From assembly GCA_007693595.1 (NCBI GenBank), contig REDI01000053.1, forward strand, positions 1-61,613: a stretch of DNA of 61,613 bases, in the 5' to 3' direction. How positions within the stretch are numbered: position 1 is the stretch's first letter; every line of letters starts with the position of its first letter. Both the position numbers and the translations under genes were made by a program. This document shows positions 1,062-61,613 of the stretch, one piece after another. Below the pieces are notes generated by a model. The model was not told the origin of the DNA and made no database searches. It saw nothing but the letters and a program-made list of their open reading frames with translations. Source of the DNA: Deltaproteobacteria bacterium (lineage in GTDB: Bacteria > Myxococcota_A > UBA796 > GCA-2862545).

Positions 1062-1898
1062 CTAGGTGCCGAGCTTGCGGCCGAGCAGCGCGTGGCAAGA
1101 GGCATCGAGCACGAGCGGTCGGTCGGGTCCGCCCGAACGCTCCGATAACGACTGTACGAACGTCTCTTCAACGGCACGCAGCTCCTTGGGGTTACAGGCT
1201 CCGAGCAGCGTGCCGGTGACCGGATTGTCGCGCATCGCGCGCCACGCGATCCGCGGGCTGGGCAAGACGAGGCTCGCGTTCAGCACGTAGACGCGCAGGT
1301 CGCCGATCCCGACCTCGCGGGCGACCTCGGCGCGGAGAGCGGGAGCGTCGGCGATGTCGAGCCAAGAACGGGAGGGTCTGGACAGCAATCGTTCAGGAAG
1401 TGCACGCATCAGCGGCTGCATTTGCGCCCGGGCCATGTCGTTGTGAGCTGGACCGCGCCAAACCGTCGTGGCGAACAGGCCACCGGGCCGAAGCACCCGC
1501 CCAGCTTCGCGCCAGCCCGCCTGCCGCTCGGGAAACAAAAAGATGCCGAAGCTTGAGAAGACCGCGTCGAAGCTCGCATCGGAGTAGGGCAAATCCTGCC
1601 CGTCGCCCACCTGGCAGGTCGCGCTGGAGGCGAGATCCGCGCTTCGGAGCCGCGCCTGGGTTCGCTCGATCATACGGGAGGAGGCATCGATCGCCTCAAC
1701 GCGCGCCCCCACCTCGCGCGCCCACTGCGCGAGCGGCAAGGTGAGGGCGCCACAGCCGCAGGCCACATCGAGGACCGCGCGGGCTGTGGAGATCTCTTGG
1801 TTTGCCAGGCGGAACAGGCCAGCAGAGAGCTGGGACGTCAGCGGCTCAAAGTAGCGCTCATAGGTGTCAGCGTGTGCGCTCCAGGCATCGGCGAACAT
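1062..1898 (-). CDS. Class I SAM-dependent methyltransferase
   Basis: About 278 residues. The glycine-rich SAM motif I reads VLDVACGCGALT (near residue 42). An acidic residue at the end of strand 2 is seen in VEAIDASSRMI. The motif around DLPYSDASFDAVFSSFG and the post-motif RVLRPGG match the UbiE/Methyltransf_11 type of small-molecule methyltransferase. Two ATGs are adjacent at 1901 and 1898. The second is better placed relative to the AGGAGG site. It lies 16 bp downstream of the DUF1428 gene and is probably co-transcribed with it. The methyl acceptor cannot be told from sequence. The stem-loop at 1039-1059 may end the transcript. Confidence 0.85.
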   Translation of the reverse strand: MFADAWSAHADTYERYFEPLTSQLSAGLFRLANQEISTARAVLDVACGCGALTLPLAQWAREVGARVEAIDASSRMIERTQARLRSADLASSATCQVGDGQDLPYSDASFDAVFSSFGIFLFPERQAGWREAGRVLRPGGLFATTVWRGPAHNDMARAQMQPLMRALPERLLSRPSRSWLDIADAPALRAEVAREVGIGDLRVYVLNASLVLPSPRIAWRAMRDNPVTGTLLGACNPKELRAVEETFVQSLSERSGGPDRPLVLDASCHALLGRKLGT

Positions 1899-1917
1899 CA
1901 TACCTCCTCGTGCCAGA

Positions 1918-2274
1918 CTAAGGGGTGTTCACTATCGGAACAAAGCCACCATAGATCATTCGCTTTCCGTCGAAGGGCATCGGGTTGGACTCGGCTGCCA
2001 GGCGCGGATCGGCCATCGCAGCCGCCATCCCGCGCGCACAAGCTTGTTCTGACGCCCACGACATCCACCCGAAGACGATGGCCTCGCCACTGCGGGCGTC
2101 GACCGCTCGGTAGAAGTCGGTGAGTTCGCCGGGTGGGACCTCGTCGCCCCAGCACTCGACGGCAAAGAGCACTCCATGTTCACGAAAGACTGTTGACGCG
2201 GTACGGGCATGTTCAAGGTATGCCTGGCGGCGATCGGCAGGTACAGGGAGCACAAATCCGGTAAAATACTTCAT
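1918..2274 (-). CDS. DUF1428 family protein (YbaA-like)
   Basis: 118 residues, the full usual length of this small soluble family. Recognisable family features are the N-terminal GFVLPVP, the REHG segment followed by CWGDEVPPGE, the central VFGWMSWAS, and the C-terminal MPFDGKRMIYGGF. The family folds as a dimeric alpha-beta barrel. Its members are often annotated as RNA-signal-recognition-like or environmental-stress proteins, but no activity is established. It is the first gene of a probable two-gene unit with the methyltransferase 16 bp downstream. Confidence 0.85.
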   Translation of the reverse strand: MKYFTGFVLPVPADRRQAYLEHARTASTVFREHGVLFAVECWGDEVPPGELTDFYRAVDARSGEAIVFGWMSWASEQACARGMAAAMADPRLAAESNPMPFDGKRMIYGGFVPIVNTP

Positions 2275-2505
2275 AGGTGGACTCCGGGCAGATCGGTAGA
2301 GGACGGGTGCGGCGAGCCGCGAGGCGCAGGACCTCCCATCGCCCCTTCGACGTTCACCGATCGCTTAGGACGGGATCGTGTCTCGGGCGCGACGGTCGAG
2401 GCTCCTTGCTCCTCGCTGTATAACTTGATACCACCCTGTGTTGGCCATCCTCGACTCGAGAGATGAGGTCAACGAAGTTCCCCGCAGCCCTACTGGTGAT
2501 CACCG

Positions 2506-3393
2506 ATGCCCCTCGCAGCCTGTTTCTGGTTTCCTGGCTCCGCGGGCGAGGCTCTGTCGTTCTATGAGCGTCGGGTGCCTGGCTTCTCGATCCGGCCGAC
2601 ACACCCCCTCACGGCAGCCCAAGCGGCCTTGGTCGGCGCACCCGAGGGGCAGCCGCTGACCTATGACTTTCGGATCTTCGATCTCGACGGGGTCGCGATG
2701 GGGCACGCGCCTGGCTTCGTGCTCAACCCCTCCCTCTCCTTGCACCTCTCCCTGCAAGATGAGCAGGCGCTCCGAGAGCTCTGGGCCGCCTTGGCCGACG
2801 GGGGCACGGTCATGATGCCCCTCCAGCCGTGGCCTTGGAGCCCCCTCTATGGTTGGGTCCAGGATCGCTTCGGCCTGTCCTGGCAGCTCACCCTCACCGA
2901 GAGCGGATCGCCGTCAGCCGCCCCTGCCCTGCTGTTCACCGGCCCGAGCTACGGTCGGGCCGAGCAGGCCATCGAGCGATACACCGACCTCTTCGACCCA
3001 GGTCGAACGCTCCTCTTGTCGAAGCACGACGGCAGCGGCCCGGACCCCGACGGCGAGCTGCAGTACGCCGAGGTCGAGCTCCACGGTCAAAAGGTGATCG
3101 CCGTACAGGGTGGCGGGCCCGAAGCCCACCCCTTTACCTTCAACGAAGCGGGCTCGCTCGTGGTTCGGTGTGCAGACCAAAGGGAGATCGACCACTTCTG
3201 GCATGGTCTGACCGCCTCGCCCGAGGCGGAGCAGTGTGGCTGGCTGAAGGATCGCTACGGCTTGAGCTGGCAGATCGTGCCAGCAGAGCTCGTCCCGCTG
3301 CTCTTCGCGCGCGACGAGGACCAGGGCCTTCGAACCATGAGGGCGATGCTCGGCATGAAGAAGCTCGACCTCGACGCCCTGCGCGGAGCCTGA
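2506..3393 (+). CDS. Two-domain VOC (glyoxalase-fold, PhnB-like) protein
   Basis: 295 residues forming two tandem PhnB-like VOC domains (about 1-130 and 140-290). The N-terminus has the family signature CFWFPGSAGEALSFY. Each half ends in a similar WGLSWQ-type segment (RFGLSWQLT and RYGLSWQIV). Domain 1 also has the paired GYVQDRFG-like loop before its last strand. Cytoplasmic; members of this family are usually of unknown substrate and often lack a complete metal site. The first 15 codons contain the 45-bp segment found again in the broken gene downstream. No strong ribosome-binding site is visible before the ATG. It is followed closely by the GT-C pseudogene. Confidence 0.85.
   Translation: MPLAACFWFPGSAGEALSFYERRVPGFSIRPTHPLTAAQAALVGAPEGQPLTYDFRIFDLDGVAMGHAPGFVLNPSLSLHLSLQDEQALRELWAALADGGTVMMPLQPWPWSPLYGWVQDRFGLSWQLTLTESGSPSAAPALLFTGPSYGRAEQAIERYTDLFDPGRTLLLSKHDGSGPDPDGELQYAEVELHGQKVIAVQGGGPEAHPFTFNEAGSLVVRCADQREIDHFWHGLTASPEAEQCGWLKDRYGLSWQIVPAELVPLLFARDEDQGLRTMRAMLGMKKLDLDALRGA
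2515..2559 (+). repeat. 45-bp direct repeat, copy in VOC gene
   Basis: This segment encodes AACFWFPGSAGEALS of the VOC protein, where it is native because it carries the family N-terminal signature. It recurs at 3635-3679 with a single mismatch. Confidence 0.9.
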
Positions 3394-3450
3394 GACGGAT
3401 CGAGCCTTGAGCGATCGGGGTGGGGAGCGGGGACCCCTCCTCGCGGCGAA

Positions 3451-4540
3451 ATGGGGCTCGGCCTGGACGATGGATACATTCAGCTCGCGGTGTCCGAGCA
3501 GTATGCCCAGGGTCGCGTCGGGGTCACCGCCGGGGAGTACGTCGTCGCATCCTCTTCTGTGCTCTATCCGTGGCTCCTCGCCCTAGGGGAAGGAACGCGC
3601 TTCCATCTTTGGCTCCCTTGGTTGTTCAATAGTGGCAGCCTGTTTCTGGTTTCCTGGCTCCGCGGGCGAGGCCCTGTCGAAGAACCTCGCCTTCTGGCCT
3701 ACAGGGCCCATCTTGGTGCTCGGTGTGGCCGTGGCTTGGATCCGGGCCAGGCTTCGCGCGACGACGGGAGACACCCAGGTTGTACTGTGGCTTTCCCTTG
3801 TGTCCGCGCTTCACCTGATGGGTTCTGGGATGGGAGAACGGTCGAGATATGAGGGCTACTTGCTCGTTCTTCTATGCCTCACCCACCTCTGGCTCTCTCG
3901 TCCGATCCAGGGGCAACAGACCCGCCCCCTCATCACGCGTGGCGTGATCCTCGCCCTCCTCGGAGGGGCAATCGCTTTCTCGCCCATGATGTCCCGATGG
4001 GGTCATCACGTGTTGAGTGTTCGAAACCAACACGGTCAGATGCACCGCTTCGCCACAACGGTGGTACAGGGGCCCGTCGCCGTCAACGACCTTGGGGTGG
4101 TAGCCTGGAACAACCCCTACGGCGTCGTTGATCTCGTAGGACTCGGAAGCGATGAGGTTCGTCACTGGCGGGTGAGTCGGGTGCGTCCCACGGCGGGAGT
4201 TCTCCGCGAGGCGTGGACCTTGGGCCTGTTGAACCCTTCGACCAAGGACTTCATCCGGGACGCCAGCCTGCCGCCCAAACTCAGCCCCTCCGCCATGCGC
4301 GACCTGATCGAGCGGCGCGGCGTGAAGGTCATCATGATCTATGAACACTGGTTTCCAGAGGTGCCGTCCTCTTGGCGACGCCTGGGCACCTTGGTCACCT
4401 CGCCACCCGACTCCGCAGCTTCGAGACGGGTTGCTTTCTGGGCAGTCAATGGTTCGGTCGCAGCGGAGCTGACCCCCGGCCTCCAGCGTTGGATCACCGA
4501 TCTCCCTGAGGGCGTCTCCTTCGAGGCCGAGGCAGACTAG
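3451..4540 (+). pseudogene. Broken GT-C fold glycosyltransferase (internal deletion plus frameshift)
   Basis: The 5' part (3451 to about 3634, frame 1) reads LDDGYIQLAVSEQYAQG and SSSVLYPWLLALG, the typical first periplasmic loop of a GT-C membrane glycosyltransferase. The 3' part (about 3680-4540, frame 2) carries four hydrophobic segments and then a soluble end with GPVAVNDLGVVAW and DLVGLGSDEV, typical of the C-terminus of the same family. Normal members are roughly 500-700 residues with 8-12 membrane segments, so most of the middle is missing. The N-terminal membrane segment is also absent. The two halves are joined by the 45-bp copied segment and sit in different frames. A shortened product from GTG 3632 is formally possible but unlikely to be an active transferase. 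Confidence 0.7.
3635..3679 (+). repeat. 45-bp direct repeat, copy at glycosyltransferase break
   Basis: Nearly identical (one mismatch) to 2515-2559. It lies exactly between the two halves of the broken GT-C gene and matches neither half's expected protein sequence. That makes it look like templated filler at a deletion junction. Confidence 0.85.
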
Positions 4541-49961: not shown

Positions 49962-51266
49962 ATGAGCTACAAGCTGCTCGCCATCGAAGGCTCCGGCGCC
50001 TACGGGACGGTGGCCAAGGCCCGCGACCTACGGCACGGTCGGCGGCTCGTCGCCCTCAAGATCCTGCGCGAAGACCACATCGACAACCCCAGGGTCCTCA
50101 GCCGCACCCGCGACGAGGCGATCATGTTGACCCGGCTCCAGCACCCGGCCATCGTGGGCGTGCACAGCCTCGACGAGAGCCTCGGTCGCCCGATCATGGT
50201 CATGGAGTGGCTCGAGGCCATGCCCCTCTCCGATCTGATCGATAGCCACGAAGCCGGGCTACCCATCGACGTGAGCTGCGAGATGGTCGCCCAGGCGAGC
50301 CAGGCCCTCGACTACGCCTACCACACGACCCAGGGCCACCCCCCTCGCCCGCTCAAGCTCGTCCACCGCGATCTCAAGCCCTCCAACATGCTGCTCACCA
50401 TCGACGGTCAGATCAAGATCGTCGACTTCGGCCTGGCTCACGGAGACTTCGACGAGAAACAGGCCGACACGGTGAGCATGGTGCTGGGCACCCGCGCCTA
50501 TATGGCGCCCGAGCGCCTCGACGGTGCCGAAGACGATCCCAGCGCCGACGTCTACGCCATGGGCCTGGTCCTCTCCGAGTTGTTGATCGGCAGGCCCGTC
50601 AAGCTCTCGTTGAACCCACGAAAGCAAGAGCAGATGCTCACCCAGATCCTCGACGCGCTCCCCCTGGATCCCCTCAACCTCCGGGCACGGCGGCGCCTCC
50701 GGGCTCTGGTCCAAGCCATGTGTGCCTACGAACCCGAAGATCGCCCCAGCCACCTCGACGTCTGCAACGAGCTTCAGACCACCATGGCCCTGGGCGGTCT
50801 CGCCCCCAATGTTCATGCCTATGCCCGGCAGATCGTCAAGCCCATGGTGAGCACCCGGCAGCGCCAGCCCCCCGAAGAGCACCCCTGCTTCGACGATGTG
50901 CGCTTCGTCGAGATCCCCCAACCTCGGCTTCGGATCGGCGCGCCTCACACCATGGACCCGATGCTCACCGAGGTCAACGATGAGCGCATCCGAGCCCTCC
51001 TCCGCAGCGAGCGATGGACCTCGAAACTGCCGCGGCTTCGGGCGCTCCTGCGCGATCCCGCCTGGACCCCCGCCCCCTTCCTCGAGGTGATCGACCTAGC
51101 CCTCGAGGGCGGCTCAAGCCACTTTGACCCCCGGAAAGTAGCGATGTGTCTCAACCTGCTTCGGGTCCGCCCCCTCGACGAGGTCATCGAGCGGGCCCGA
51201 GACCTCCAAGAGCACCCGGACAGCCTCATCGCCAATACGGCGCGGCAGTTCCTCGACAGCGTGTAG
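49962..51266 (+). CDS. Hanks-type Ser/Thr protein kinase with helical C-terminus
   Basis: 434 residues. All kinase motifs are present: GSGAYGTV (10-17), the ATP-binding Lys33 in VALKIL, HRDLKPSN (135-142), DFG (155-157) and APE (182-184), so it should be active. The kinase domain ends near 280. The C-terminal ~150 residues are helical (LRALLRDPAWTPAPFLEV, VAMCLNLLRVRPLDEVIE) and may be a HEAT- or TPR-like partner-binding segment. No membrane helix is present, which is less common for bacterial kinases of this type. It follows the zinc peptidase gene by about 120 bp and may share its regulation. Confidence 0.93.
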   Translation: MSYKLLAIEGSGAYGTVAKARDLRHGRRLVALKILREDHIDNPRVLSRTRDEAIMLTRLQHPAIVGVHSLDESLGRPIMVMEWLEAMPLSDLIDSHEAGLPIDVSCEMVAQASQALDYAYHTTQGHPPRPLKLVHRDLKPSNMLLTIDGQIKIVDFGLAHGDFDEKQADTVSMVLGTRAYMAPERLDGAEDDPSADVYAMGLVLSELLIGRPVKLSLNPRKQEQMLTQILDALPLDPLNLRARRRLRALVQAMCAYEPEDRPSHLDVCNELQTTMALGGLAPNVHAYARQIVKPMVSTRQRQPPEEHPCFDDVRFVEIPQPRLRIGAPHTMDPMLTEVNDERIRALLRSERWTSKLPRLRALLRDPAWTPAPFLEVIDLALEGGSSHFDPRKVAMCLNLLRVRPLDEVIERARDLQEHPDSLIANTARQFLDSV

Positions 51267-55115: not shown

Positions 55116-55157
55116 GGCTCTACCCCTCGAGCGGCGCCCCCTGCGGAGCGCTCAGCC
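55110..55157. terminator. Inverted repeat spanning two convergent stops
   Basis: GGCTGAG (55110-55116) and CTCAGCC (55151-55157) form an inverted repeat that includes the stop codons of both convergent genes. The 34-bp centre is GC-rich and could fold further. It is a candidate bidirectional terminator. Confidence 0.45.
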
Positions 55158-58100
55158 CTCATCGTCGGCGTTGTCCTCCCGATCGGCTCGCCCGCGACGC
55201 AGCCTGCCGAGCCGATCGCCCCCCCCGGATCGGCCACGGCGAAGGCGACTCATGCGATCCGAGCCTTCCTCGGAGGTCTCGGTGGAGGCCTCCTCCGCGC
55301 TCCGACGGAGGCGGCGCAGCCGTTCGCGACCGCTCTCGCCGGAGGCGCCCTTGCGGAGGCGGCGCAGCCGATCACGGGCCGACTCCCCTTCTGGCGCGAG
55401 CGACTCTTGGGAGCCATCGGCAGGAGCGCTCCGGCGCAAGCGGCGCAGACGGTCCCGCGCGGACTCGCCCTCGCCCCCGCCCTCGGGACGGGCGGCGCGG
55501 CGGCGCGGGCGGTCCTCGGCCCCCTCTTTGGCGGAGGCGCTCCGTCGGAGGCGACGGAGACGGTCCCGTGCGGACTCCCCCTCGCCCTCGCCCTCGCCCT
55601 CGGGACGGGCGGCGCGGCGGCGCGGGCGGCCCTCGAGCCCCTCTTCGGCGGAGGCGCTCCGACGGAGGCGACGAAGGCGCTCGCGCGAGGAGCCCTCCCC
55701 CTCCGAGCGCAGCGCACGGCGACGGGGGCGCTCCTCGCCTTCTTCTTGCGACGAGGCGCTCCGACGCAGACGACGCAGTCGATCTCTCGCGGACTCACCC
55801 TCACCCTCGGACCGCGGAGCGCGGCGGCGCCGAGGCTCCTCGCCGCTTCCTTCGGACGGCGCGCTCCGGCGCAGCCGACGGAGGCGCTCGCGCGAGGAGC
55901 CCTCCCCCTCCGAGCGCAGCGAGCGGCGGCGACCGCTCTGCGACTCTTCGGACGGAGCGGCCTCGTCGGCCTCCCCCTCGCCTCGCGCGCTCCGACGCAG
56001 CCGACGGAGTCGCTCACGACCGGACTCCCCACCCCGACGAGGCACCCGCCCCGAGCCGCGGAGCGCCCGGCGAGGTTCGGCCGCCTCGGTGGGCTCCTCC
56101 ACGGCGTCTGGGGTGGCCTCGGCGGCCCCTGGCACCTCGTCGGTCCCCTCGGTCGGAGGTGGCGTCTCGGCCTCAGCCACCGCAGCGCGCAGGACCTCGG
56201 CGGCGCCACGAGCCGCGTCCAGGGCCTCCGACGGCGCTACGGCCTCGGCGATCGCCGCGACCGTCTCGCGTAGGGCGGTCAGAGCCTCGCTGACCGCGTC
56301 CACCGCCTCGTGCTCTCCGGCGTCGGACGCAGCCGCCTCGAGCAGCGCCTCGCCCTCGCGTACCGCGACGGCGCGAGCCTCCGCTGCCTGGACCGCCCCC
56401 TCGACGGCCGTGGCCACCCCCTCGCTCACCTCGCGAGCCGCGACCAAGGCCTCTGTTGGCTCCTCGGCCGCAGCGATCGCGGCGACCGCCTCGCGAAGAG
56501 CGGTCAGCGCCTCGGCGACCGCGTCCACCGACCCGTGCTCGACCGCCTGGGCCGAGGCCGCCTCGAGCAGCTCCTCGCCCTGTCGCACCGCTGCCGCACG
56601 GGCCTCCGCCGCCGCCTGCTCGACCGCCTGCACGGCCGCTGCGACGGCCGCCGCCACCCCCTCGGCGGCGCGCTGTGCCCCTTGGAACGCCTCCTCGGGG
56701 GACGCCGAGGTCGCGATGGCCTCGACCTGAGCCGAGAGCTGGGAGAGCGCCTCGGACACCGCCTCGACCTCCTGAACCTCCTCCGCGAGCGCGCGCGCCG
56801 CGTCTTGGAGCGCGTGCGCCTCACGGCTCGCCGATTCACGGGCCTCGTTCAGCGCGACCACCGCCGCGATCGCTCCGTCCAGGCCCTCCTCCACGGCGCG
56901 CGCCGCGTCGAGGGCGCGTGCCGGATCCTCGGCGGTCGCGATCTGCTCCACCGCCTCCGACAGAGACGCCAGCGACGCCTGGACGTCCGGGGCGTCGGCA
57001 AACTCCGCCGCGCGCGCTGAGGCAGACGCGCGGATCCGCAGCCCCTCCTCGACCGCCGCAGCCCGTGCCTGGGCGGCGGCCACCGCCTCGGCCACCCCCG
57101 ACGCGGCCGCTCGGACCGCCTCCAGGAAGGCCTCGACCTCGTCGGACTGCTCCACCCCGACCGCCCGCTCCTTCAAGGCGGCGAGCGCCTGGGCGACCCC
57201 CTCGTCCTCGGCCTGGGTCCCCGCTAGCTCGACCGACGCCTCGAGGATCCTCCCGATCTCGACCGCCGCCGCCTCTCGCGCGGCCGCCAGGGCCGCTGCG
57301 GTCTGCACCGCGACCTGGTGGGCCTCGATCGCCGCCGCGATCTCTTGAAGAGGACCGAAGGCCTCGGACGAGGCGGCTCGCGCCTCCTTCACCAGCGCCG
57401 CACGGGAGGCGTCGTCATAGGCGGCGACCAGCCGATCCCGTGCATACTTCGCGTCTTCGATCGCGCTCGCGGCCCGGCGGAGCATCGCCCTCGCCCCCTC
57501 GGGGTGGGCCTCCTTAGGGATCTCGTCGAGGGCGTGCCGGAGCTCGTGGACTCGGTCGGTGATGGGCTCGAGCTCCGCGATGAGGGCGTCGATCTCGGCC
57601 TCTGCCTCGGCCGCGCTCATCTCGACGGGCAGCGCCTCGACCGCCGAGCGGACCGCGTCGGCCGCATCGACCAGCGACGAGATCGGCTCGCTCACGTCCA
57701 TGGACACGATCGCGCCCGCCGCCTCGCGCGCCTCATCGAGGCGGAGATCGATCAGGCTCTCGAAGCGCTCCGACGCCTCACGGAGCCGATCCTCGAGGGC
57801 CTGGCGCGCCTGGGCGAGGCGATCGAGCGGGCCCTTCATCGGCTCTTTCCCCTGATGGGGCGCCGCGAACTCGGCAGCCTCCGCCGCCTGGGTGAGCGCC
57901 GGGGCACTCTGGTCACGGACCGCCATGATCCGTTCTTCCGTCTGGACGATCAACAGACCACGCTCGTGATCGTCGAGCACGGAGGTCACCTCGCGATCAG
58001 CAGCCTCCACCGCATCGATCAGCGCATCGAGATCCAGGTCGAGCGCGGGCACCGACCCGGCGTGCTCGGCGGACTGGGCCGCCTCCTTCGCGACCGTGCC

Positions 58101-61100
58101 ACGCTCTACTGCCTCTCGCAGCGACGCGGTCGCAGCATCGAAGGCGGTCAGGTCGAGCGCCGGAGGCTCCTCGAAGGCGGAGGCCCGCGCCTGGAGGGCC
58201 GCTCGGCGCGGATCCGCCCGATCCTGCGCCTCCACCAGTCGGCTCAGATCGGCTTCGAGGCGCGCCCGTGCCTGCTGCAGGGCCTCCGCTGCCGCCTCGA
58301 CATCGGTCGCGATCTGTGTCCGGGCCTCCTCGATCGCGAGGGCCACCGCCTCGCGCTGGGCCTGGACCCCCTCGGCCGCGCCTCGGGCCAGCGCCGCCGC
58401 TTCCTCGACCTCGGCGAGGGTCTCGCCGGCCTGGGCGAGCGCCACCGCCTCTCCCAGCCCCGTGAGGGCCGCGTCGTAGAGCTCGATCGCCGCGACGACG
58501 CGCTCGCACGCCGCCTTGGCCTCGTCGGAAGACGGAGTGAGGCTCTGGAGCTCCGCGCGCTCGGACGCGATCGAGGCCGCGTCGGGTAGCGAGGCGATCT
58601 CCTGCTTGATCGCCTCCGCGCGCCGTCGCTGCGCTTGGGCGTGCGCCTCGCGGGCTGCCGCGATCGCGCGCTCCGCCGCTTCTATCTTTGGCGACACCGC
58701 TCCCTGGCGCTCCCGGAGATCCGTCAAGGCCTGAGGGAGGCGCTCGATGTCTTCGAGCTGAGCGACCTGCTCGATCGCGGACGCGAGCGCCTTGGCCCCA
58801 CGCTCTGCCTCTGAGAGAGCCGACTCAGGGGCTCCGAGATCCGTCGCCCCCCGCTCGGCGAGAGCCGAGAGTTCCTCTCGGAGTGCGCCGAGGGAGACGC
58901 GGGCCTGATCCAGTCCCGCACGCTGCTCCGAGGCCTGCTCCTTCGCCTCCGCGAGCGCAGCAGCCGCGCGCTCCGCGTCGGCCGCGATGCGGGCCTGCAG
59001 CTCCTCGAGGGCTTGCCGGGCCGTCTCGATCCCCCCCAGGCAGCGCTGGGCGAGACCGCGCGCCATGGAGGTGGCCTCTTCGATCTCGTCCAGATCCGAG
59101 GCCGCTTGGGTCAGCTCCACCGCCTCGGCGAGCTCACCCCGCGCCGCCCGCACCGCCTCGACGTGGGTGCGAGCCTCTGCGAGCTCTTCTTCGGGTCCCT
59201 CGACGTGCTCGGCGAGCTGCGCCTCGAGCAGGGAGAGGGCCTCGGAGGCCGAGGCGAGCAGACCCGCGACCTCATCGCGAAGGGCGAGCGCGCGCTGGTC
59301 GCGGACCTGCGCTGCGGCCTGGGTCAGGGCGGCGGAGGACCTGGCGAGCTCGTCGCGAGCGCCGGAGGCGTCGAGCTCCAGGAGCGAGGCCGTGAGAGCC
59401 TCGGGATCGGCGGACTCCAGGCGCGCGGCGAGAGGATCGAGCCCCGCCAAGACCTCGCGTCCCCGCGCCACCGCCGCTTGGAGCGCGGCGCGAGCCTGCG
59501 CCACGGGCTCGTCGTCGAAGGCGGAGGCTCCCAAGGCTTCCTCAGCTTGGGCGATCCCTACTCGGATCGCCTCAGACTGCTCCGAGAGCGCACCCTCGAG
59601 GGCACCTCGGGCGCGTCCCAGCTCCTCCTGAGCCCGCCCCAGGGCCTTCTCCCACCGCGCGACGCGATCGGGTCGCGAGCGGAGGAGGGCGTCGATCTCG
59701 GCGTCGAGATCGACCCGGATCTCGACCGTCGAAGACTCGAGACGCTGCAAAAGAGCGCGGGCCTGAGCGGGGAGCTCGGCGAGGTCCGCCAGGGCCACCC
59801 TCGGCGCCTCCAGGGCGCTGGGAAGGCCCTGGACGGAGGCCTGAGCGGACTCGACCACCTCGCCGATGGACCGCGCGATCTCCTCGATCTCGGCGCGACG
59901 GCGCGCTCGCCACCCACGATGATCCACCTCGGACTGGATGCGCGCCTCGAGATCGGCCGCGATCGCCACGGCCTCCCGATGATCGGCCTGAGCGGCCGCG
60001 AGCAGGTCTCGACCCTGTTGGTGGACCTCGTGGGGCTCGCCGTCTTCGAGCGCCTGGAGGAGAGCTCGGATCCCGGCGGCCTGGGCCCTGCGGGCCTCGA
60101 CGTGAGACTTCAGGCTCGAGAGGGCCTCGGTCGCCTCGATCCGCTCCGCTTCGGTCCGCGCGGTGAGCGCCTGGAGGCGAGCGCCCTCCTCTTCGGCCAG
60201 CCGCTCGGCCTTCGCGGCCTCGGCTCCGAGCGCGTCACGGGTCTTCGCGACGAGCTCCCGCCGTGCCGCCGCCTGCTCCTCGAGCTGCTTGAGGCGCGCC
60301 TGGACGGCGTTCCGGTGCTCAAGGAGGGCCGTGGCCGACGCCGACGCCCTCCCCTCGGCGTCGATCGCCGCCGAGACGTGCTGGCGCGCCGCCTCGGGCT
60401 CGACCGCCGCCCTCGACGCTTCAGCCGCCTCAGCCGCCTCAGCCGCCGCGGTGCGGGCCGCATGTTCCGCCTGCTCCGCGGCTCGTAGCCCCTCTTGGAC
60501 CTCAGGATCCTCGATGGAGTCCACCAGATCTCGCAGCCCGGAGAGTGCGCTGGTGGCCTCCGCCGCACGTTCCTGGGCGGCTTCCGCCGCGCCAACAGCC
60601 TTCTCCGCCGCCTCTGCCGCGCTGGCCTTGGCCGCGACCGCTTGGCGTGCCTGCGCGAGCAGGTCCACGGTGGCAGAGGCCGCGCGCTCCAGCGCCCCCT
60701 GCTGCTCCGACGCCTCACTCATGGCCTCTGTCGCCCCCTCTTGGGCGGCGTCGAGATCCTTCTCGAGGAGGGCGCGGAGGGTGTCGATCGCGGCTGGGAG
60801 GCTCTGGCGCAGCGCCTCGACCTGAGCCTCGACGGCCTCGTGCGCCGCGAAGACCTCGGGCAGATCGGCCTCAAGCACCGCCTCGGATGTGGTGGAGAGG
60901 CTCACGTTCAGCTTCGCGAGTCCCTCTTCAAGGCGGTTGGCTCTGTCGGACAGCTCCTCGCGCAGGCGTGCGAGCGCGGCCTCGCGGGCCTCCGCGACCG
61001 AGGAGGCCACCATCTCGGCGGCCTCGCGTGCCGACGCCAGCGCCTCGTCGAGCTCGTCGGAGTCCCGCACCGAGGCGACCATATCGGCGAGGAGCGACAT

Positions 61101-61613
61101 GGCCTCTCCGACCCCGCCGCGCTCGGCGAACGCACCTGCCTCTGATCTCGCAGAGGCCAACAGGGCCTCTGCTTCCTGGACGGTTCGGGCTCGATGCGCT
61201 TCGCGTCGGACCGCCTCGGAAAGGACCTCGGCCTCCGACGTCGCCGCAGCCAGCGCCTCGGCCGGATCCTCGGCACCCGCGATCGCCTCCACCGCCTCCG
61301 ACAGCGCGCTCAGCGCCGCCGTCACCGGCTCCGCATCGGCGAAGTCTCCCGCTTGTTCGCGGGCGCTCGACAGGAGGGAGGCGCCGGCGTCCACAGCCTG
61401 CGACAAGGCCTCCGCCGCGGCGGCCTCGGCCGCTTCCTTCGCCGCACGGGCTTGGGAAACCGCCTCCGAAAGCGCCTCGGCCTCCGACGTCGCCGCAGCC
61501 AGCGCCTCGGCCGGATCCTCGGCACCCGCGATCGCCTCCACCGCCTCCGACAGCGCGCTCAGCGCCGCCGTCACCGGCTCCGCATCGGCGAAGTCTCCCG
61601 CTTGTTCGCGGGC
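55152..61613 (-). CDS. Giant Ala/Glu-rich coiled-coil protein with basic RLRRLRR tail (5' end outside window)
   Basis: The frame is open through the right edge, so only the C-terminal ~2,150 residues are seen. Most of it is Ala, Glu, Arg and Ser in long helices, with no membrane segment. Many stretches follow a recurring module, alanine-rich with a core like ALSALSEAVEAIAGAEDP and EALAAA. It occurs repeatedly: two near-identical copies at the right edge, and diverged copies at about 56.2-57.2 kb. The last ~300 residues switch to a very basic domain with ten RLRRLRR-type motifs about 30 residues apart, separated by acidic EGEG linkers, and end acidic. The N-terminal part, which would reveal any head domain, is absent. 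A cytoskeletal, scaffold or nucleoid-binding role is possible but unproven. Confidence 0.8.
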   Translation of the reverse strand, partial: AREQAGDFADAEPVTAALSALSEAVEAIAGAEDPAEALAAATSEAEALSEAVSQARAAKEAAEAAAAEALSQAVDAGASLLSSAREQAGDFADAEPVTAALSALSEAVEAIAGAEDPAEALAAATSEAEVLSEAVRREAHRARTVQEAEALLASARSEAGAFAERGGVGEAMSLLADMVASVRDSDELDEALASAREAAEMVASSVAEAREAALARLREELSDRANRLEEGLAKLNVSLSTTSEAVLEADLPEVFAAHEAVEAQVEALRQSLPAAIDTLRALLEKDLDAAQEGATEAMSEASEQQGALERAASATVDLLAQARQAVAAKASAAEAAEKAVGAAEAAQERAAEATSALSGLRDLVDSIEDPEVQEGLRAAEQAEHAARTAAAEAAEAAEASRAAVEPEAARQHVSAAIDAEGRASASATALLEHRNAVQARLKQLEEQAAARRELVAKTRDALGAEAAKAERLAEEEGARLQALTARTEAERIEATEALSSLKSHVEARRAQAAGIRALLQALEDGEPHEVHQQGRDLLAAAQADHREAVAIAADLEARIQSEVDHRGWRARRRAEIEEIARSIGEVVESAQASVQGLPSALEAPRVALADLAELPAQARALLQRLESSTVEIRVDLDAEIDALLRSRPDRVARWEKALGRAQEELGRARGALEGALSEQSEAIRVGIAQAEEALGASAFDDEPVAQARAALQAAVARGREVLAGLDPLAARLESADPEALTASLLELDASGARDELARSSAALTQAAAQVRDQRALALRDEVAGLLASASEALSLLEAQLAEHVEGPEEELAEARTHVEAVRAARGELAEAVELTQAASDLDEIEEATSMARGLAQRCLGGIETARQALEELQARIAADAERAAAALAEAKEQASEQRAGLDQARVSLGALREELSALAERGATDLGAPESALSEAERGAKALASAIEQVAQLEDIERLPQALTDLRERQGAVSPKIEAAERAIAAAREAHAQAQRRRAEAIKQEIASLPDAASIASERAELQSLTPSSDEAKAACERVVAAIELYDAALTGLGEAVALAQAGETLAEVEEAAALARGAAEGVQAQREAVALAIEEARTQIATDVEAAAEALQQARARLEADLSRLVEAQDRADPRRAALQARASAFEEPPALDLTAFDAATASLREAVERGTVAKEAAQSAEHAGSVPALDLDLDALIDAVEAADREVTSVLDDHERGLLIVQTEERIMAVRDQSAPALTQAAEAAEFAAPHQGKEPMKGPLDRLAQARQALEDRLREASERFESLIDLRLDEAREAAGAIVSMDVSEPISSLVDAADAVRSAVEALPVEMSAAEAEAEIDALIAELEPITDRVHELRHALDEIPKEAHPEGARAMLRRAASAIEDAKYARDRLVAAYDDASRAALVKEARAASSEAFGPLQEIAAAIEAHQVAVQTAAALAAAREAAAVEIGRILEASVELAGTQAEDEGVAQALAALKERAVGVEQSDEVEAFLEAVRAAASGVAEAVAAAQARAAAVEEGLRIRASASARAAEFADAPDVQASLASLSEAVEQIATAEDPARALDAARAVEEGLDGAIAAVVALNEARESASREAHALQDAARALAEEVQEVEAVSEALSQLSAQVEAIATSASPEEAFQGAQRAAEGVAAAVAAAVQAVEQAAAEARAAAVRQGEELLEAASAQAVEHGSVDAVAEALTALREAVAAIAAAEEPTEALVAAREVSEGVATAVEGAVQAAEARAVAVREGEALLEAAASDAGEHEAVDAVSEALTALRETVAAIAEAVAPSEALDAARGAAEVLRAAVAEAETPPPTEGTDEVPGAAEATPDAVEEPTEAAEPRRALRGSGRVPRRGGESGRERLRRLRRSARGEGEADEAAPSEESQSGRRRSLRSEGEGSSRERLRRLRRSAPSEGSGEEPRRRRAPRSEGEGESARDRLRRLRRSASSQEEGEERPRRRALRSEGEGSSRERLRRLRRSASAEEGLEGRPRRRAARPEGEGEGEGESARDRLRRLRRSASAKEGAEDRPRRRAARPEGGGEGESARDRLRRLRRSAPADGSQESLAPEGESARDRLRRLRKGASGESGRERLRRLRRSAEEASTETSEEGSDRMSRLRRGRSGGGDRLGRLRRGRADREDNADDEG
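55170..56032 (-). repeat. Basic RLRRLRR repeat array in coiled-coil tail
   Basis: Eight strong (R-x-RLRRLRRSA) and two degenerate motifs encode a basic C-terminal array, spaced by about 25-40 residues of acidic, Arg/Pro-containing linkers. The DNA units are imperfect, so this is protein-level repetition maintained over time. Confidence 0.8.
61226..61613 (-). repeat. 249-bp (83-codon) tandem repeat at window edge
   Basis: The unit starting at 61226 recurs at 61475, exactly 249 bp (83 codons) later. The 139 bp visible in the second copy (61475-61613) appear identical to 61226-61364. The array continues out of the window. Identity at DNA level implies recent duplication or gene conversion; assembly collapse is a risk here. 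Confidence 0.85.

Follow-up and report, generated by a model that had tools for sequence, protein, structure and literature searches.

AglZ and FrzS are motility scaffolds in which a receiver-like, degenerate signalling head is placed on a long coiled coil, and SMC and Rad50 proteins are recognised by terminal P-loop ATPase halves and a hinge. Among bacterial pseudokinases, the families DLHK, GLW, CP1, ActPs1-3, and DYD have been published (review PMC12599244). Expressed eCIS clusters were reported from marine Myxococcota MAGs, with kinases unmentioned (PMC11937823). We analyzed a window of 61,613 nucleotides, which is the whole contig C45 (G000:C45) of a genome of 4.9 Mb in 97 contigs, belonging to an uncultured order of Myxococcota-like bacteria. 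One end of this window encodes most of a giant protein. Kinase folds, pseudokinases of bacteria, and rods of helices are already known kinds, whereas the family to which this giant belongs, its motif, its linkage to contractile injection systems (CIS), and the architecture of the giants appear to be undescribed in the literature searched.

Gene structure and pseudokinase head

The giant-gene frame, at 55152-61613 (-), is open over 2,153 codons and extends past the end of the window, confirming the preliminary description of a protein with over 2,100 visible residues that continues further. Its N-terminus is encoded on another contig of this genome, C10, whose first 55 bases are identical to the last 55 of the window (exact overlap). 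The N-terminal 568 codons occupy G000:C10:56-1759 (-), and the visible part, open throughout, corresponds to codons 569-2721 of the joined gene plus the stop. Once joined, the gene comprises 2,721 codons with a single, terminal stop, starts with an ATG preceded by GAGGGAG, and encodes a product of ~285 kDa. Because the 55-base repeat is present four times in the genome and nowhere else (two sites in C10 and two in C45, by pattern search), it is uncertain how many near-identical modules stand at the C10-C45 junction, and another in-frame join, 93 codons shorter, is possible.

The third-position GC of the joined gene is 0.84, compared to 0.86 for the neighbouring Der GTPase gene. A second giant of this genome, the paralogue L056 on contig C89 (2,031 residues), has its head, Ala/Glu-rich rod, and basic tail on one contig, as do the giants L063 and L066 from other genomes. 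The open frame, the coding composition, and these single-contig relatives rule out an assembly artefact for the whole gene, which the preliminary description had considered as a possible objection; the module copy number at the junction is the one uncertain element. It is well supported that the window gene encodes most of a real protein of ~2,700 residues, made of a dead kinase head, a rod of modules, and an Arg-rich tail.

The 2,153 residues visible here match no Pfam family (threshold E 0.01), and NCBIfam gave no match for the visible part and only weak kinase matches for the head. Membership among SMC/Rad50 proteins was rejected, given this lack of a Pfam family in the visible part and the kinase-like head.

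Joined residues 1 to ~290 show a weak match to the C-lobe of protein kinases (Pfam Pkinase, PF00069; E 2e-6), the score of the head itself, 27.7, being below the Pfam cut-off of 31.7. A profile built from five heads retrieves PknE (2e-14) and PknA (5e-14) from the PDB. The head of the giant orthologue L108, used as a stand-in for the window's own head, was predicted with a pLDDT of 92.8, and this model aligns to PknA with a Z of 22.2 over 253 residues and to MST3 with a Z of about 22. Together, the L108 model and the profile matches indicate a two-lobe kinase fold.

The residues required for phosphotransfer in an active Ser/Thr kinase, namely the β3 Lys, the HRD Asp, and the DFG Asp, are replaced by F, A, and G, respectively, in the window head, and the set is missing from the family as well. 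The β3 Lys is found in none of the 40 members compared, 37 of which have F, Y, or W at this position (Phe in 31), and the DFG Asp is lost in all 40. The HRD Asp is gone in 34 members and kept in six, and the catalytic-loop Asn is replaced by Arg in 39. Where kinases have HRDxxxxN, the family has the motif HGxLxPWR, and GYG stands at the position of DFG. The Pro and Glu of APE and the subdomain-IX Asp are kept in 40/40 members. Since the catalytic residues are lost family-wide while these residues are invariant, selection has kept the fold and not the chemistry. Compared to Hanks-type Ser/Thr kinases (PknA, PknB, PknE; PF00069), the likeness extends to the kinase fold across the whole head, the APE motif, and the subdomain-IX Asp, whereas the β3 Lys, HRD Asp, loop Asn, and DFG Asp are replaced in the family and the score falls under the Pfam cut-off. 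Judged from its residues, the head is a degenerate kinase, and HGxLxPWR is the distinctive motif of the pseudokinase family that it defines.

The preliminary description had looked to the N-terminus for a head domain that might suggest a role. Such a domain is present and has a kinase fold, but it is catalytically degenerate; it appears not to be that of a well-known family either, the pseudokinase family being apparently new. The published example of DLHK, Hrdlrpas/GFG, resembles HGxLxPWR/GYG although DLHK retains the HRD Asp, whereas GLW pseudokinases are membrane-bound and have GLW in place of HRD (both PMC12599244). HGxLxPWR...GYG differs from the example motifs of this review, in a comparison made by the published examples alone, and the family may belong to the published DLHK or CP1 families. 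The terms "Myxococc-", "coiled", and "injection" do not appear in this review.

Helical rod and Arg-rich tail

Between head and tail lies a rod of about 2,000 Ala/Glu-rich residues, with nine copies of one module in two sets, at joined residues 461-788 and 2016-2391. The N-terminal modules (461-545, 554-638, 638-713, and 708-788) score 82-94 bits each, and the part of this set inside the window, 60942..61613 (-) or joined residues 569-792, contains near-identical copies and one diverged copy. The C-terminal set, 56145..57272 (-) or joined residues 2016-2391, comprises five diverged copies of 68-79 residues, predicted to form an array of three-helix bundles. A profile trained on only the N-terminal set matches all five C-terminal modules (9.6-36 bits) and one trained on only the C-terminal set matches all four N-terminal modules (33-43 bits), against a maximum of 4-8 bits in 200 shuffles. 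Two modules near the N-terminus are identical at 248 of 252 DNA positions. The contrast between diverged modules at one end and near-identical ones at the other, which had been read as growth by repeated internal duplication, is borne out by these reciprocal matches and by the DNA identity, and the duplication reading stands with it.

The rod middle, 57273..60941 (-) or joined residues 793-2015, is Ala/Glu-rich and carries other internal repeats above shuffles; a profile scan detected no copy of the module in these ~1,200 residues. The module profile did not match the other giants scanned, and no sequence homologue of the rod was found in 20 other genomes of the host family. Several giants have internal repeats of their own, and the size and composition of the rod persist across giants.

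A 229-residue piece of three modules (56145-56831) was predicted with a pLDDT of 96 and a pTM of 0.77 as tandem three-helix bundles, in which helices of ~50 residues run from module to module. The term "coiled coil" used previously probably does not fit these modules, which would form, according to this model of the C-terminal modules, a spectrin-like rod of helical bundles. A Foldseek search of the PDB with the module model gave nothing significant; among the matches below significance, Z is 7.3-7.8 to EzrA and 6.8 over 215 residues to β-spectrin (3kbt). The predicted helix pattern fits that of spectrin repeats; no Pfam family is matched. Spectrin, EzrA, and Staphylococcus EbhA share with the predicted rod tandem three-helix bundles with helices continuous between repeats, whereas the modules here are ~70-93 residues long and very Ala-rich, and no sequence relation was found.

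The Arg-rich tail, 55155..56144 (-), has 330 residues, 27% of which are Arg, and a calculated pI of 11.4. Its motif stretch (~55194-56012) alternates ten RLRRLR[RK]/RMSRLRR/RLGRLRR motifs with Glu/Ser/Gly linkers. This agrees with the ten-repeat pattern of RLRRLRR-type motifs and acidic linkers described previously; RLxxLR motifs occur ten times per 330 residues, compared to a mean of 0.12 and a maximum of 2 in 2,000 shuffles. Basic repetitive tails are present in most complete giants and in many short members of the family, with differing motifs: RPRRSLRRRGE (L063), DRLARLRSRRG (L064), RRLRRPS (L056), DRLRRSRGGEEE (L069), and SLRERLKRS (L059). The giants L060 and L061 have no strongly basic tail, and there are short members in the CIS cluster that have an Arg-rich stretch of the same kind followed by another conserved domain at the end. 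Because the motifs differ among these tails, what is conserved seems to be multivalent charge and not the exact sequence. From the sequences compared, the charge pattern is a habit of the family and the exact motif is lineage-specific, so that across the family the tail is conserved in kind and not in sequence. Its unlikeness to AglZ, SMC, and crescentin, noted in the preliminary description, holds.

Distribution of the family and link to contractile injection systems

The family is present in 46 of 71 genomes of the class, all from one order, and in none of eight genomes outside this order. In a phylum sample it was found in 45 of 379 genomes, again all of the same order, with six candidates scored per genome so that absences are not exhaustive. 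A contig scan with the window head alone as query gave no confirmed relative. Most public records in which relatives occur carry the label of Deltaproteobacteria, Proteobacteria, or Myxococcota MAGs, and some are plainly mislabelled. L099 and L101 (CAMCWU01) and L098 (JAACDH01), labelled Klebsiella pneumoniae and Rhodobacterales, are evidently such mislabelled MAGs of this lineage.

Short members have ~350-1,000 residues and giants 1,800-3,700, the latter being found in one host family only, that of the window, which has several copies, the giants among them. In the remaining families of this order a single copy is present, in open frames of ~350 to 1,600 residues, some of them cut by contig ends. 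In a quick tree the giants group outside the clade of short members, several nodes being weak. The last ~150 residues of the short CIS-linked members L084, L091, L095, and L099 form a conserved C-terminal domain with the motif LPxGxW, ubiquitin-like by eye. In full-length short members, Pfam gave kinase matches and one weak EAD1, with no match for this C-terminal domain, which the window giant lacks.

In 19 genomes, including this one, a coordinate comparison places a member of the family within 15 kb of a CIS baseplate gene. The conserved neighbours of the short members include a phage-tail hub protein, gp25, baseplate J, and Tail_P2_I. The CIS cluster also encodes an active-looking Ser/Thr kinase and a ~550-residue protein that is FHA-like by eye, for which Pfam gives a weak SLT match only. 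Of the 21 genomes of the host family, 18 carry the pseudokinase family together with the order-type CIS baseplate gene; the other three have neither, G016 having a divergent partial match only. In several other genomes from the order, the CIS gene is present but no pseudokinase was detected. A YukD-type ubiquitin-like protein of the cluster, in which membrane helices were recognised by eye and the C-terminus may be a RING finger, is encoded at L095:7101-8012 (+) and, in the window's own genome, at L115:10598-11536 (-), with relatives in 12 of the loci compared.

The CIS cluster of the window genome lies on contig C54 and contains its own short paralogue, which is the cluster copy. The window giant is not a component of the cluster: giant genes are outside it and have no CIS neighbours, being flanked by ECH, OmpA, methyltransferase, and other genes. 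A CIS tape-measure role for the giant was dropped for the same reason, and because of the kinase head. Judging by sequence, the window giant is a giant paralogue of a family whose short members adjoin the CIS cluster, and essentially no conserved neighbours of giants were found beyond genus level, so the CIS tie is by paralogy only. Genus-level neighbours are an M14 carboxypeptidase gene by L056 and L070 and a methylmalonyl-CoA mutase gene by L060 and L061. The M14 gene, cytosolic-carboxypeptidase-like, is directly upstream of the second giant on C89 (L056:9032-10207 (-)), possibly in an operon, and its congener counterpart, L070:3318-4604 (-), is also directly upstream of a giant.

The short members recall the threonine-phosphorylation system of T6SS (PpkA/Fha), in which a kinase and an FHA-like gene (here by eye) also accompany a contractile machine. 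Nevertheless, the family here is one of pseudokinases, the cluster is of the phage-tail baseplate type, and the giant is outside it. The literature search found no paper joining pseudokinases with contractile injection systems. The window itself contains another Ser/Thr kinase gene, at 49962-51266 (+) (Pkinase E 1.6e-41, HRD and DFG intact); it lies downstream of the giant gene, separated from its 3' end by about 4 kb in which other genes are located.

Possible roles of the giant protein

We favor, at about even chances, a non-catalytic cytosolic scaffold or tether, in which the pseudokinase head would serve for docking and a long rod would connect it to a tail that binds polyanions. This reading retains the scaffold-type role of the preliminary description. 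Docking is suggested by a dead kinase fold that selection has kept, and the head would bind a protein partner, perhaps a kinase or an FHA-like partner of the CIS pathway. A rod whose sequence drifts, with no homologue in 20 genomes, while its size and composition persist, suggests a spacer, which would measure very roughly 100 nm by our estimate (~26 module-lengths at 3.5-4 nm). A tail of many Arg motifs suggests polyanion avidity or condensation: it may bind nucleoid DNA, RNA, or acidic membrane or, alternatively, self-condense through many weak Arg contacts. The whole protein would thereby fix the distance between a signalling complex and a polyanionic surface.

A possible, more tentative reading places the giant in the pathway of the short pseudokinase, a threonine-phosphorylation-type control of the assembly or placement of the injection machine, for example as a tether between CIS particles and the nucleoid or membrane. 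The proximity of short members to baseplate genes in 19 genomes, their joint occurrence with the CIS in the 18 genomes and joint absence in the other three, and the presence of a kinase, a YukD-type membrane protein, and phage-tail proteins in the cluster are consistent with it; the off-cluster position of the giants and the genomes of the order with a CIS gene and no detected pseudokinase argue against it, and the co-occurrence is confounded by shared ancestry. Rather speculative is the broader proposal of a lineage-specific signalling scaffold, in which a CIS-tied pseudokinase family gave rise to giants whose self-duplicating three-helix rod and Arg-motif tail make an adjustable tether of ~100 nm, by which the injection machine, or else its kinase, would be positioned on DNA or membrane. 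The Arg content, acidic linkers, ten regular motifs, and pI of the tail, together with the similar basic tails of other sequence in relatives, could also point to a nucleoid or RNA organiser whose active end is the tail, histone-like or coacervate-forming, with head and rod just setting the spacing. We consider this unlikely, as a similar Arg-rich stretch is found in short members of the CIS cluster that end in a different conserved domain.

Two further readings are very improbable. A dead signalling domain that precedes a long helical region rich in Ala and Glu, in relatives that are myxobacteria-like, is the design of AglZ and FrzS and could indicate a surface or motility scaffold marking a cell site; this likeness is one of design only, whereas the giant has a kinase head instead of a receiver, a basic tail, and modules predicted as bundles. 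The complete divergence of rod sequences between genomes and the recent near-identical duplications would be expected if the repeats of a pseudokinase gene had expanded mostly neutrally, leaving a rod and tail with little function, but stop-free frames of 1,800-3,700 codons persist in many genomes, and the helical composition recurs, as do basic tails in most complete giants.

Under the favored scaffold reading, the giants would add a case from bacteria in which a docking head derived from a kinase is mounted on a spectrin-like rod. They belong to an apparently undescribed pseudokinase family that has its own nearly invariant motif, is confined to one uncultured order, and is often CIS-linked. 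Their lengths change by module duplication, and their tails keep the charge pattern while changing the motif, which makes the giants a natural series for studying spacer length and multivalent Arg tails. In one further locus, L068:4793-8746 (-), the place of the rod is apparently taken by a winged-helix domain, an NTPase, and TPR-like helices (all by eye), fused to the pseudokinase head.
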